Shown: piece by piece, positions 22,281 through 64,000 of the stretch
Position numbering within the stretch: position 1 is the first letter of the stretch
Layout: each line of letters starts with the position of its first letter
Assembly: GCA_013286145.1 (NCBI GenBank)
Contig: JABDGH010000001.1
Span: 62,001 to 126,000, forward strand
DNA length: 64,000 nt
Reading direction: 5' to 3'
Origin: Verrucomicrobiota bacterium
Lineage (GTDB): Bacteria > Verrucomicrobiota > Verrucomicrobiia > Methylacidiphilales > UBA1321
Notes under the pieces: generated by a model
Seen by the model: the letters and a program-made list of their open reading frames with translations, nothing else
Told to the model about the DNA's origin: nothing
Databases searched by the model: none
Made by a program: the position numbers and the translations under genes

Positions 22281-24077
22281 TCACTTGGCGGGAGACCTTT
22301 GCAATATCGCAGCCTTTACCTTGGCCAGGTTATATTGCGCTTCGTTATCGTCGGGCTTCAGGCGTAAAGCCTCCTGAAACTGCACCACTGCTTCGTCCAT
22401 TTGTTCTTTTTGGAAAAAAGCAGCGCCCAGACCGTTGTGTGCCTCGGACATGTCTGGATTAATTTCGAGAGCCTTTTGGTAATGAGAAATCGCCTCATCA
22501 ACTTGTCCCTTTTTGGAAAGTATATTACCCAGGTTATTATGAGCGTCCGCCTGCCTGGGATTGATTTCCAGGGCCTGCTGGTACTGGGACATCGCTTCAT
22601 CTATTCGTCCTTTTTTAGAAAAGATGGTGCCTATGTTGTAGTGAGCTTCAGCATTTTCCGGACGGATTTCCAAGGCCTTTTGGTACTGGATAAGCGCTTC
22701 GTCCAGATGTCCTTTTTGGGTAAGGTAAGCGCCAAGATTGTAGTGAGCCAGCGAAGAGAGCGGGTTGACTTTAAGGATGTCCGTCCAAAGGGAGAGTTCG
22801 TCGGTAAAAACATTTTCACGAGTCACGGTAAGAAAAGTCAGGGGCAGGATCACGCCCATGCAGGGCACCACCGCCATCCAGAATCCGCGATTCGATTTTA
22901 ATACCATGAGGAACAAGGCCAGCAGTTGCACCGCCATTCCCGCCAGGGGTAAGTAGTAAAAGCGGTCAGCCACCGGGCGATAGAGAGGAACAAAATTGGA
23001 AACAGTCGCAAGCCCCAACCAATAGATGGCAACCCCAAGAGCGCCCACCCTGCTTTTGTAAGCCAGCAAAACCTGCAATAAAACCACCACGATCAGAATT
23101 ACGAGAGCAACGGGCGGAGAGGGGCCGAACATGATTGCCGGTGTATAGTCGGCCGCAAATTGCATCGGCCAAACCAACTTGCCCATCATGAAAACCCATA
23201 AGCCCGGTTGGATTAAAAAGACTTGAGAGAATGATCCACCGAGGTAATTCAAAGGAACTCGATCAGGGTTTGAAGGAGCTAAAAGAAATCGAGCCGCCAG
23301 AAAGATAACTGTCACCGTCATCGCACTGCCCAAAAACAGAAGCCACGGTAATTTCGCTTCCTTCCGACGAAACACGAACCAGTAAACAATGAGCAGTAAG
23401 GCTGTCGCAATTCCCGATTCCTTGCATGTTACCGAGGCGAAGGTGCAAAAAGCGCCGATGCTTCCCATGATCATCGCGATGCGAAAATTGTCCGGACGAA
23501 AAGCCATTGCCGCGAGCAAGGCCAGCAAAGTGAAGAACGTCACCAAAAGGCCCGAGCTATAACTCACCTCGGCGACCGACTCTACCGCGATTGGATGCAG
23601 GGCGAAAATCAACGTGACCACCACTATCGCAAGTTGAGCTTTCAAAAAAACACTTTTGGTCAGTCCCGTTATTTCCGTCGCGATCAAGCGTTGCAACAAC
23701 ACAAACAACAGCGCGACATTTGCCGCATGAAGCAAATTGCTGCATAAATGATACCCGAACGGTTCCTTGCCGCAGACGGCGGCGATAAGCATCAAATAAA
23801 GTAATTGTCCGGGACGAGGACCGAGCATCAGATTCATCCCTAACACTTTCAGCGACAGAACGGCAGGCAGGTTGGAAAGGGAAGTGATAAATCCTTCCTG
23901 AATAATCTCGACGCGACCATCGTAAACAAAACCAGATTTGAGTGAGGGCCAGTAGGCCAAAAAAGCCACCACCGCCAGCAGGAGGGCTATCCAGACACTC
24001 GGAAACGGCACCTTAGAGTCGTGCGAAGTCGGAGAAGCGTTATCGAACGCCTTCTTTTTCCTGAATCGTTTTGCCAT
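22281..24077 (-). CDS. TMTC-like polytopic membrane protein with C-terminal TPRs (paralogue A)
   Basis: 598 aa; MAKRFRKKKAFDN N-terminus; many TM segments; ~4 full TPRs. Confidence 0.88.
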   Translation of the reverse strand: MAKRFRKKKAFDNASPTSHDSKVPFPSVWIALLLAVVAFLAYWPSLKSGFVYDGRVEIIQEGFITSLSNLPAVLSLKVLGMNLMLGPRPGQLLYLMLIAAVCGKEPFGYHLCSNLLHAANVALLFVLLQRLIATEITGLTKSVFLKAQLAIVVVTLIFALHPIAVESVAEVSYSSGLLVTFFTLLALLAAMAFRPDNFRIAMIMGSIGAFCTFASVTCKESGIATALLLIVYWFVFRRKEAKLPWLLFLGSAMTVTVIFLAARFLLAPSNPDRVPLNYLGGSFSQVFLIQPGLWVFMMGKLVWPMQFAADYTPAIMFGPSPPVALVILIVVVLLQVLLAYKSRVGALGVAIYWLGLATVSNFVPLYRPVADRFYYLPLAGMAVQLLALFLMVLKSNRGFWMAVVPCMGVILPLTFLTVTRENVFTDELSLWTDILKVNPLSSLAHYNLGAYLTQKGHLDEALIQYQKALEIRPENAEAHYNIGTIFSKKGRIDEAMSQYQQALEINPRQADAHNNLGNILSKKGQVDEAISHYQKALEINPDMSEAHNGLGAAFFQKEQMDEAVVQFQEALRLKPDDNEAQYNLAKVKAAILQRSPAK

Positions 24078-24163
24078 GCGGTCTGGATTGCTAGGATGAA
24101 CATTTCCGGCCTCCCTAGAAGCAGATTTTGTTCAGCTTACCATTGTCTTCAAACCGGGCGTTT

Positions 24164-60735: not shown

Positions 60736-60832
60736 TCGAAGCTACTGAGTGAACTATCCGCGAAAAGCGGTTCGCATGACTATTCTGATAACTATTCTTT
60801 TCCGAATGGCAAAGAGTGGGGAATTAACGGTG

Positions 60833-61171
60833 CTAGGGATATTTTAAAATTAGTTTTTCGATCCAAAGCTGGACGACCTCTTCGGGGGTCTTTCCTTCTT
60901 GCCTAACTTCTCCGGTTTCAATGGCCAGGAAGGCATCGAACGCGTATCCGTGATATCTTCCATATTTTTGAAACAATCCGTTCAGCCGGTTCATGGCAGC
61001 ATCACACGCTGGCCACGTAAAACGATTCTCTACGTATCCTGCAACTATATAACGAGCGAACCCATCCATAAACACGGCGGGTGTAATTTGTTCCTGCTTA
61101 CAAAAGGCCTCAACTTCCAGTTTATCGATGTCGTCTACAAAGGCACGTTTTGCGAAGTCCTCTATTGTCAT
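60833..61171 (-). CDS. Hypothetical protein
   Basis: 112-aa ORF, no family recognised; adjacent to tRNA fragment. Confidence 0.5.
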   Translation of the reverse strand: MTIEDFAKRAFVDDIDKLEVEAFCKQEQITPAVFMDGFARYIVAGYVENRFTWPACDAAMNRLNGLFQKYGRYHGYAFDAFLAIETGEVRQEGKTPEEVVQLWIEKLILKYP

Positions 61172-61196
61172 GTTGGAAACTATTGGACAACTAAGC

Positions 61197-61252
61197 GCAC
61201 CCGTCGAGATTTGAACTCGAAACCTCTTCCTTCGGAGGGAAGCGCTCTATCC
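61197..61252 (-). repeat. tRNA-Arg 3' fragment (56 bp, identical to 61918-61973)
   Basis: GCACCCGTCGAGATTTGAACTCGAAACCTCTTCCTTCGGAGGGAAGCGCTCTATCC shared; sequence then diverges, lacking 5' acceptor strand and most of the D arm. Confidence 0.95.
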
Positions 61253-61289
61253 CGTGGTGGAGGGAGTAGACATGTAAAAATGCTGTGGG

Positions 61290-61706
61290 ATGATGCAACC
61301 GAAGATGCAGCCCAACCCATCCCCCTACGACCCCATTGAAGAAGCTGCCAAGGGGAAGGCAAATGCGATCAAGGTCATTGATGAGGGTTGTGATGTTGGG
61401 GCTGCTTTCAGACATCCTATTCTTGGGCACATTTCTTTGCTCTACGGTGACCGGGAAAAAGGTATCCGGCACATTCTTCATCGAAGAGAACGGGAGATTG
61501 CTGATAATGCCAGGCTTATTGGACAAGTACCACGAGATGTGGTTCTAAAATTGATCGAGGTTATCCTTTTTGGGAAAATGACCAGAATAGGGCCGAAGTA
61601 CAATATCGATCACGACGGCTACCGGGCTGTATTAGCGGCTCCTGCGGGCGACCAAATGAATTACTGGCTGCTGACAGGATTTAAAGTTACCTCAGTAAAG
61701 AGGTGA
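61290..61706 (+). CDS. PBECR-like (phage Barnase-EndoU-ColicinE5/D-RelE) nuclease-domain protein, putative
   Basis: FRHPILGHISLLYGDREKGIRHILHRRER...LIEVILFGKMTRIGPKYNIDHDGYRAVLAAPAGDQMNYWLLTGFK resembles PBECR domain architecture. Confidence 0.5.
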   Translation: MMQPKMQPNPSPYDPIEEAAKGKANAIKVIDEGCDVGAAFRHPILGHISLLYGDREKGIRHILHRREREIADNARLIGQVPRDVVLKLIEVILFGKMTRIGPKYNIDHDGYRAVLAAPAGDQMNYWLLTGFKVTSVKR

Positions 61707-61916
61707 AGCTGCGGTGGTATCGGTGAAATTGGAGGTTCATCCGACCCTATGCATCCTGGACCTACACTAAGGCGTTCCAAGATGGGAGCGCTGAAGCTTC
61801 AGAGCTAAATATGGTATCTTTGGGGGCTTAGGTCAAGTGCGATTACGACAAGCTCGGGATGACGGACTCATTCGTAAGTCATTAACAAGGGACAGGCGTT
61901 ATTTCCATAGCGAGCG

Positions 61917-61990
61917 TGCACCCGTCGAGATTTGAACTCGAAACCTCTTCCTTCGGAGGGAAGCGCTCTATCCAGTTGAGCTACGGGTGC
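61917..61990 (-). tRNA. tRNA-Arg (anticodon CCG)
   Basis: Reverse complement GCACCCGTAGCTCAACTGGATAGAGCGCTTCCCTCCGAAGGAAGAGGTTTCGAGTTCAAATCTCGACGGGTGC folds to a full cloverleaf. Confidence 0.95.
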
Positions 61991-62243
61991 GATTACTTTT
62001 CAGGGGGGAAACTGATCTTTGACTTCAATTTTCATTCCCTGGGCCATCCCTTTCGGAATGAGGATCAAGGCTATCGTCAGCGTGACGGAAATCCATCACA
62101 AAACGGTTCTGCTCGGACTCCCCTCTTTCCAGAAAACGGGCATCGCCAACCCCGATTTCTGTGCATATACTCCGAGACCGTGGGTGGCAGACGCTTGGCA
62201 GGGTTCCCCTCCCCCTCTTGAATCCTCTCCTTTTCACCCTTGC

Positions 62244-64000
62244 ATGAAAAATATTGCGTTACTGCTCGCGCTTCTGGTTTTGGGCTTCGCTGCGAAGCTC
62301 GATGCAGCGACGGTGACCGCTTCCTACTCCTCGGCTGCCGATGTGCCCGTTACGGCGGCAAGTTACACGGCGACGGGAAATACGGTTAACTTTAATCTCA
62401 ACTATGCGCCCGTTGCAGGGACGATTTTCACCGTGGTCAAGAATACCGGGATTGATTTCATCCAGGGTACATTTGACAATCTGGCTCAAGGGCAGGCCGT
62501 GACCCTGTCGTATAACGGAATCAATTACAGTTTCGTGGCCAATTACTACGGCGGCACCGGCAACGATCTCGTGCTTCAATGGGCCAACACCGTACTTGTG
62601 GGCTGGGGCCTTAGCTTAAATGGACAGTTAGGCAATAATAGTACGGTCAACCGCAACGTGCCTGCGGCAATCACCGCATCGGGAGTGCTCTCGGGCAAGA
62701 CGGTCGTCTCCATGTCCGGAGGAGTTTTCTTCGGCCTGGCGTTGTGCTCGGATGGCACGGTGGCAGCCTGGGGATCAAATACCTACGGTCAATTAGGCAC
62801 CAACAGCACGACCGATAGCCTGGTACCGGTAGCGGTAAACATGTCGGGAGCTCTTTCCGGCAAAACGGTCATCGCCATAACTGCGGGAGATTATTACTCG
62901 ATGGCACTATGCTCGGATGGCACGGTGTTTGCCTGGGGCTTAAATAATTACGGTCAATTAGGCAATAACAGCACGACCGATAGCTGGGTGCCAGTGGCGG
63001 TCACAACCTCGGGAGTGCTTTCCGGCAAAACGGTCGTTGTCATAGCCGCAGGCCAGTACGATAGTCTGGCGCTTTGCTCGGACGGCACCGTGGCTACATG
63101 GGGTCGTAACTCGAACGGCCAGTTGGGCAATAACAGCACGACGAATAGCTCGGTACCGGTGGCGGTCACAACCTCAGGAGTGCTTTCGGGCAAAACGGTC
63201 GCCGCAATAGCGGCAGGGGGAGTTCACAGCCTGGCTCTCTGCACGGATGGAACGCTTGTCACCTGGGGCCTCAACGCAAATGGCCAGTTGGGCAATAACA
63301 GCACGACCGACAGCAGTGTACCGGTGGCTGTTACGACATCGGGAGTACTTTTGGGCAAGACGGTCGTCTCCATGTCCGGGGGAGCTTGGCACAGCCTCGT
63401 AATATGCTCGGACGGCACGGTGGCTGCATGGGGCATCAATTCGCTTGGCCAGTTAGGCGTCAACAACAGCTATAGCCTAACCCAAAGCGTCCCGATAACA
63501 GTCCCGCTATCGGGAGCTCTTTCGGGCAAGACTGTAGTATCCGTGTCCGGGGGAGTTTATCAAAGCGTGGCGCTTTGCTCCGACGGCACGGTGGCTGCCT
63601 GGGGTAGTAACTCTGCTGGCCAGTTGGGTGACGGCACCACCAACAACACAGGCTATGTACCGGAAGCCGTTACCACGACTTCGTTCGGTCCCGGCATACG
63701 TTTCGCGCTGGCAGGCACCGATGCATCTTCCTCGTTCAATCTTGCTCTCGTCGCTTCTCTATCAGGGTCGCCGATCATTACCAGCGCACTGGCAGCCAAC
63801 AACCTGACGGGACTTCCTTTTAGTTATACCGTCACAGCTTCCAGTTCACCCACCACCTATGGAGCCACGAGCCTGCCGGCAGGTTTAACGATCGACACTT
63901 CCACGGGTTTGATTTTTGGTACCGTAGTTACGAAGGGCACATATACCGTCCATCTTTCCGCCACAAACCCGGGCGGAACGGGCACCACGAGTGTCGTATT
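62244..64000 (+). CDS. Secreted RCC1-repeat protein with Ig-like (He_PIG-type) domain, continues past window end
   Basis: ATG with signal peptide MKNIALLLALLVLGFAAKLDA; repeated ALCSDGTVAAWGxNxxGQLGNNSTTDSxVPVAVTTSGVLSGKTVV; then SLPAGLTIDTSTGLIFGT. Confidence 0.88.
   Translation, partial: MKNIALLLALLVLGFAAKLDAATVTASYSSAADVPVTAASYTATGNTVNFNLNYAPVAGTIFTVVKNTGIDFIQGTFDNLAQGQAVTLSYNGINYSFVANYYGGTGNDLVLQWANTVLVGWGLSLNGQLGNNSTVNRNVPAAITASGVLSGKTVVSMSGGVFFGLALCSDGTVAAWGSNTYGQLGTNSTTDSLVPVAVNMSGALSGKTVIAITAGDYYSMALCSDGTVFAWGLNNYGQLGNNSTTDSWVPVAVTTSGVLSGKTVVVIAAGQYDSLALCSDGTVATWGRNSNGQLGNNSTTNSSVPVAVTTSGVLSGKTVAAIAAGGVHSLALCTDGTLVTWGLNANGQLGNNSTTDSSVPVAVTTSGVLLGKTVVSMSGGAWHSLVICSDGTVAAWGINSLGQLGVNNSYSLTQSVPITVPLSGALSGKTVVSVSGGVYQSVALCSDGTVAAWGSNSAGQLGDGTTNNTGYVPEAVTTTSFGPGIRFALAGTDASSSFNLALVASLSGSPIITSALAANNLTGLPFSYTVTASSSPTTYGATSLPAGLTIDTSTGLIFGTVVTKGTYTVHLSATNPGGTGTTSVV

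Follow-up and report, generated by a model that had tools for sequence, protein, structure and literature searches.

Single-gene units bounded by tRNA 3' fragments lie in series at a tRNA-Arg(CCG) gene of Candidatus Methylacidiphilales

How does a stretch of DNA with one gene and no integrase come to lie between an intact tRNA gene and a second copy of that gene's 3' part? The question is raised by a locus in the window, a stretch of 64,000 nucleotides on contig JABDGH010000001.1 from an uncultured bacterium of Candidatus (Ca.) Methylacidiphilales, Verrucomicrobia. The initial annotation of this DNA had read the locus, at tRNA-Arg(CCG), as a mini-island carrying the footprint of site-specific insertion at a tRNA 3' end, left either by a collapsed integrative element or by a small cassette mobilised in trans. 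We compared the window genome (G000) with its congeners (G001-G007), all of them draft metagenome-assembled genomes (MAGs), 66-94% complete, in which arrays at contig ends could be missed.

The intact tRNA-Arg(CCG) gene, the anchor and insertion target, was called by ARAGORN at 61916..61990 (minus strand) and is identical across 75 bp to the counterpart gene in G002, G005 and G007. The perfect 56-bp duplication claimed earlier was reproduced exactly: 61918-61973 recurs base for base at 61197-61252 (minus strand), at an offset of 721 bp, and the match extends to 59 nt at 98% identity (61197-61255 versus 61918-61976). This orphan copy, the far boundary of unit 1, sits downstream of the intact gene and covers tRNA positions 15-73, so that the 5' acceptor strand and most of the D arm are missing, as had been described. 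The interior of the unit (61253..61915) contains a single credible open reading frame (ORF) of 138 aa at 61290..61706 (plus strand). No match to the integrase profile PF00589 was found at the locus, in line with the earlier remark that the spacer is too small for an integrase. Among 167 tRNA loci surveyed in the eight genus genomes, 156 had at least 1 kb of downstream sequence; the window repeat scored 57, and mismatched tRNA/locus controls over these 156 loci scored at most 17, with the exception of two alignments across most of a tRNA, which were read as other intact tRNA genes. The window repeat is far beyond chance. The window genome (2.33 Mb, 66% complete) holds no copies of it beyond these two.

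The same tRNA and its flanks were searched for in 98 genomes, and the loci were retrieved. In 5 of the 7 genus species, tRNA-Arg(CCG) is trailed by one to three orphan 3' fragments (G000, G003, G005 and G007, and weakly G002). The units between them measure 0.72-0.93 kb and encode a single gene each, except one unit with two genes, and none carries an integrase. The fragment-to-fragment lengths are 721 bp in G000, 904, 926 and 924 bp in G007, 925 bp in G005 and 729 bp in G003; the G002 unit is 918 bp long and is closed by a weak fragment of 28 nt. Starting from the tRNA, the G007 array contains unit A (a 200-aa protein), unit B (a small ORF and a 205-aa protein) and unit C (a 200-aa protein, probably secreted), each followed by a fragment. 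G005 contains B and a fragment, G002 contains B and the weak fragment, and G003 contains unit X (171 aa), a fragment and a relative of C. The contents of the units are unrelated to one another and differ by species at the same tRNA: even G002 and G003, the closest sampled pair (median identity 87% over 11 proteins), have different units there. At this locus, then, an insert follows directly on the tRNA 3' end and a direct repeat closes it, and inserts at this one target vary in presence and content among related genomes. In G001 and G006 tRNA-Arg(CCG) has no fragment, and in the draft genome of G004 this tRNA was not found. None of 20 tRNA-Arg(CCG) loci outside the genus had a fragment at E <= 1e-3. 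These results uphold insertion at the tRNA 3' end and the reality of the insert, which is not a single mini-island but one part of a serial array that recurs in congeners and could not be seen as such from the window alone. A second, divergent tRNA-Arg(CCG) was also noted on a short contig of G003 (L154, G003:C176), among genes that include a 509-aa tyrosine recombinase and tRNA-Gly(GCC); this may be an element carrying its own tRNA-Arg.

Unit B gives the clearest view of exchange. It was found on contigs JABDHJ010000023 (G007), JAJSLK010000014 (G005) and CAIPBM010000086 (G002), all from Verrucomicrobia / Ca. Methylacidiphilales MAGs, and is the first unit from the tRNA in G005 and G002 and the second in G007. 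The assemblies are independent and concur on unit B, which makes an artefact of assembly improbable. Between G005 and G007, 992 bp aligned at 91% identity, and the match stops at the end of the tRNA fragment. The B protein is 94.9% identical in this pair, the highest value among 13 reciprocal best hits; the next best pair in a larger protein set reached 86%, and a conserved gene 3-4 kb upstream of the tRNA showed 71%. Unit B therefore appears to have been transferred between species, for which these few compared genes make a good, not conclusive, case. The differences between the G007 and G005 copies fall 8, 6 and 28 times on first, second and third codon positions, the pattern of a protein-coding gene, although a premature stop interrupts the G005 copy close to its end. 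Another five genomes of the class have distant relatives of B; three were inspected, and in each a small ORF lies ahead of the gene, pointing to a two-gene module that may be conserved. The predicted fold of B was uninformative (predicted local distance difference test score, pLDDT, 39), and viral contigs and plasmid records gave no match to it. Its LIGGWA and SKDLDF motifs are reminiscent of nucleotidyltransferases, which we take as a lead that no profile confirmed.

The fragments were aligned with the tRNAs of nine genomes. All of them except the weak one of G002 reach the tRNA 3' terminus, ending in GGGTGCAC, or in GGGTGCGC in the window copy. Their 5' limits differ by unit: the fragments of A and X start from tRNA position 10, the window fragment starts at about position 15, and those of B and C start in the anticodon arm. 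The tRNA repeats that bound the units are 47-66 bp long and near-identical. Varying 5' limits together with a constant 3' terminus fit a crossover somewhere from the anticodon loop to the T arm, with the portion 5' of the crossover derived from the cassette. A search for the tRNA core in viral contigs gave no match.

Some of the units also share a short motif. The 21-bp sequence AGAATAGTTATCAGAATAGTC, in which 8 bp are directly repeated at a period of 12 bp, is present in a single exact copy at the end of unit A (G007) and of unit X (G003), about 70 bp ahead of the fragment. These two units are similar around the motif (139 bp at 76% identity, fragment included) and their genes are unrelated. 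An exact copy lies in the window at 60798-60778 (60778..60798, minus strand), after the gene of a 112-aa protein (60833..61171, minus strand). These were the only three sites in 60 genomes from the genus, family and order when up to two mismatches were allowed. Among 388 genomes drawn from the phylum the window site was the sole match, and viral contigs gave none. From the motif, and from how far it lies from the fragment in A and X, we therefore infer a probable second unit beyond the window fragment, older and eroded, at 60740..61196 (about 60.75-61.20 kb, minus strand), composed of the 112-aa gene and the end motif; the initial annotation did not include it. We read the motif itself as a site for a recombinase or an accessory protein; a shared terminator is also possible.

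We consider it most probable, at about 0.62, that integrase-free cassettes were inserted serially at the 3' end of tRNA-Arg(CCG) and were mobilised in trans. The fragment-bounded units, their recurrence with differing contents and the presence of unit B in several species at different array positions were observed directly. The mechanism would begin with a small circular DNA that holds roughly a single gene plus a copied tRNA 3' part. Another element would provide, in trans, a tyrosine recombinase that recombines this copy with the chromosomal tRNA at a crossover site lying somewhere from the anticodon loop to the T arm. The tRNA would be made whole again by the cassette copy, and its old 3' end, now displaced, would remain on the far side as the orphan fragment. 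Every new insertion would enter beside the tRNA, so that units would stack up and older fragments decay; the cassettes may be mobile at present. In the window, the newest unit would be unit 1 with its lone nuclease gene, and the older one, its end fragment lost, would be the unit of the 112-aa gene. A more specific proposal is a dedicated, integron-like capture of genes through tRNA 3' ends, in which one trans-acting recombinase moves many unrelated single-gene cassettes by recognising the tRNA core and an arm site (AGAATAGT-TATC-AGAATAGTC, the 21-bp direct repeat near the cassette end) at more than one tRNA (Arg-CCG and Lys-CTT). We put this forward tentatively and think it rather unlikely.

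Several results weigh against serial insertion in trans. No recombinase could be tied to the site: no array unit encodes one, none adjoins tRNA-Arg(CCG) of the arrays, and none was found on the array side in congeners; an integrase within the element, as in a self-mobile prophage, integrative and conjugative element (ICE) or integrative and mobilizable element (IME), was thus not found. The search for an integrase in the window genome gave a single PF00589 match, Xer-like by inspection, in an assembly that is 66% complete. Units B, C and unit 1 contain neither the end motif nor a clear direct repeat comparable to it. The gene of unit 1 points toward the tRNA, opposite to the genes of A, B, C and X. 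The second window unit lacks a closing tRNA fragment in the fragment search of the locus, and neither an excised form nor a clean empty allele of the site was found among the genus genomes. Candidate recombinases do exist in congeners: G002-G007 have 13-20 PF00589 matches each and G001 has four, and several of these genes adjoin other tRNA genes. The only integrase sequence adjoining tRNA-Arg(CCG) outside the genus was a stretch of 340 bp lying 5' of the gene in G096. At four loci in three species (L104, L140, L142 and L164), tyrosine recombinase genes have their starts on the 5' side of the tRNA, some 40-150 bp away from it, and not on the 3' side.

The units could also be collapsed prophages or integrative elements, each reduced to about one gene by decay like that of cis-mobilizable elements and then accreted. 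Such decay and accretion are documented for ICEs and IMEs (PMC5704250), the gene of unit 1 is a phage-type domain that elsewhere stands at the end of a longer protein, and many congener integrases lie beside tRNA genes, with a 3.66-kb integrase-bearing element at tRNA-Gly(TCC). Against this, intact genes would have had to survive independent shrinkage to 0.72-0.93 kb at least four times at one tRNA (unit 1, A, B and X), no larger intermediate was seen at tRNA-Arg(CCG), and B was transferred whole. Of the two origins first offered, the small trans-mobilised cassette is the better fit, because several one-gene units of 0.72-0.93 kb lie in series in related species; collapse is possible but doubtful.

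Homologous recombination of imported DNA through the 47-66-bp tRNA repeats would need neither a site-specific recombinase nor a helper; the repeats are long and near-identical, and such exchange would account for the spread of unit B once an array was present. It leaves unexplained how new, unrelated units gained the tRNA 3' fragment and why unrelated units share the 21-bp motif, and we regard it as improbable. A standard integron, or clusters of attC sites lacking integron integrases (CALIN) whose sites resemble tRNA by chance, would agree with serial single-gene units of integron-like size, but the separators are tRNA 3' ends rather than attC sites. This explanation was rejected as very improbable on those separators and on the lack of a TIGR02249 match at E <= 1e-30 in eight genomes, a search in which no positive control matched, so that absence is unproven. 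Tandem duplication of the tRNA with decay of one copy, the outcome the initial annotation had set against its own claim, is suggested only by the nearby copy on the same strand. Every fragment lacks the 5' part and, apart from the weak one of G002, ends at the tRNA 3' terminus. The units have unrelated DNA between their fragments, and unit B occupies different array positions; duplication was rejected and is scarcely credible.

The serial arrangement of small units is not confined to one tRNA. In the eight genus genomes, clear fragments spaced less than 1.2 kb apart were found at two tRNAs alone: tRNA-Arg(CCG) and, in G002, tRNA-Lys(CTT), where a second array of like build has units of 1097 and 689 bp. 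By inspection, its cargo is a cupin-like protein and a PEP-CTERM-like protein. Other tRNAs of the genus show single islands, such as 2.1 kb at tRNA-Gly(TCC) of G006 and 4.3 kb at tRNA-Arg(ACG) of G007. Further single inserts were noted in passing. Downstream of tRNA-Gly(TCC) (572-643) at L101 (G007:C3:40000-48000), the 3.66-kb element is closed by a tRNA fragment and encodes an integrase of its own (359 aa), a 347-aa protein resembling a rolling-circle Rep and a small helix-turn-helix-like protein; it is possibly a minimal integrative plasmid or a single-stranded DNA phage. On the window's own contig, past the right end of the window (L044 14400-18071, G000:C1), tRNA-Arg(TCT) is followed 3655 bp downstream by a 39-nt 3' fragment; this 3.7-kb stretch has four ORFs in which no integrase was found and is a candidate integrase-less island. 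At L094 (G000:C4), tRNA-His(GTG) at 805-880 has a 25-nt 3' fragment 3563 bp downstream, and the final two ORFs before it are, by inspection, nucleotidyltransferase-like with a HEPN-type partner.

The cargo of unit 1 is a stand-alone PBECR1 domain of a phage effector family. The 138-aa ORF matched PF18809 with 29.9 bits (curated cut-off 27.6) over residues 39-135, and aligned to the C-terminus of a 410-aa ORF in G096, with His61 in common and Thr/Ser in LL(T/S)G. The His and Thr/Ser positions are thus kept in this predicted nuclease. Its relatives elsewhere in the class lie mostly inside long frames, the best being that 410-aa ORF with a C-terminal domain. PBECR domains are predicted RNases of phage-injected proteins and occur alone too (PMC5512222). 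In viral contigs the ORF found only one partial match of 28 residues, and phage records contained no relative of it or of the 112-aa protein. The latter has weak relatives in two other class genomes and an all-helical predicted fold (pLDDT 72), to which the PDB gave nothing better than E = 1.3; it has something of the look of an immunity protein, which is no more than an impression. Apart from PBECR1, no cargo protein, the 112-aa protein included, matched Pfam, NCBIfam or PADLOC.

Two further features of the window were noted. A long ORF with RCC1-type repeats and a DNA period of 165 bp lies at 62243-64000 and continues past the window (about 1780 aa in the contig). At 23670-24132 there is a series of exact repeats, 26-65 bp long and all offset by the same 1988 bp, which suggests that a gene or domain was duplicated recently.

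Where insertions lie in tandem at a tRNA gene, the usual reading is that of decayed phages or ICEs, many kb in size. The unit described here is near the smallest possible, one gene and a piece of tRNA, is repeated, and in at least one case has apparently moved between species. Its cargo includes a PBECR1 nuclease that stands alone and what looks like a conserved two-gene module. It offers a concrete, testable case of single-gene cassettes that may spread outside integrons by a recombinase not their own, and a signature to search for: tRNA 3' fragments at 0.7-1.1 kb spacing with the 21-bp end motif.

Several known systems resemble parts of this arrangement. CALIN likewise consist of serial single-gene units that rely on a recombinase encoded elsewhere, whereas here the recombination site is the tRNA 3' part and no IntI match was found in the genus at the cut-off used. 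The PBECR1 domain of phage polyvalent and MuF proteins (PF18809, PMC5512222) matches the unit 1 gene with its His and Thr/Ser kept, but here the gene stands alone in a bacterial tRNA-anchored unit with no visible prophage. Tycheposons of Prochlorococcus, as they are summarised in PMC11389934 and PMC10872708, are also tRNA-targeted and tied to tyrosine recombinases; they span 4-200 kb with their own recombinase, whereas the units here are below 1.2 kb without one. The tandem ssrA islands of Dehalococcoides (PMC3146451) are serial and bounded by the 3' end of the target or a direct repeat, and some without an integration module were proposed to be cis-mobilisable; they differ in their tmRNA target, a serine recombinase in 16 of the islands, 20-bp repeats and an extent of up to 100 kb.

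The closest likeness is to the additive flexible genomic islands of Ca. Actinomarinales (PMC7771536) and Methylophilaceae (PMC10872708), in which repeats recur along the island, content varies in close strains and most genes are unknown. Flexible genomic island fGI-2 of Methylophilaceae is additive, with recurring 20-bp repeats of tRNA-Lys(CTT) and a size range of 330 bp-42 kb (PMC10872708). Those islands reach tens of kb, whereas the units here are a uniform 0.7-1.1 kb with nearly always one gene; and compared with the 20-bp repeats of Methylophilaceae, the repeats here are 47-66 bp long, an end motif is common to unrelated units and the host belongs to Verrucomicrobia. These features were not found described in a limited search of the open-access literature. 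The window structure belongs to the additive tRNA-targeted islands, among which its uniform one-gene units, long repeats, end motif across unrelated genes, use of two tRNAs and host phylum seem to be new.
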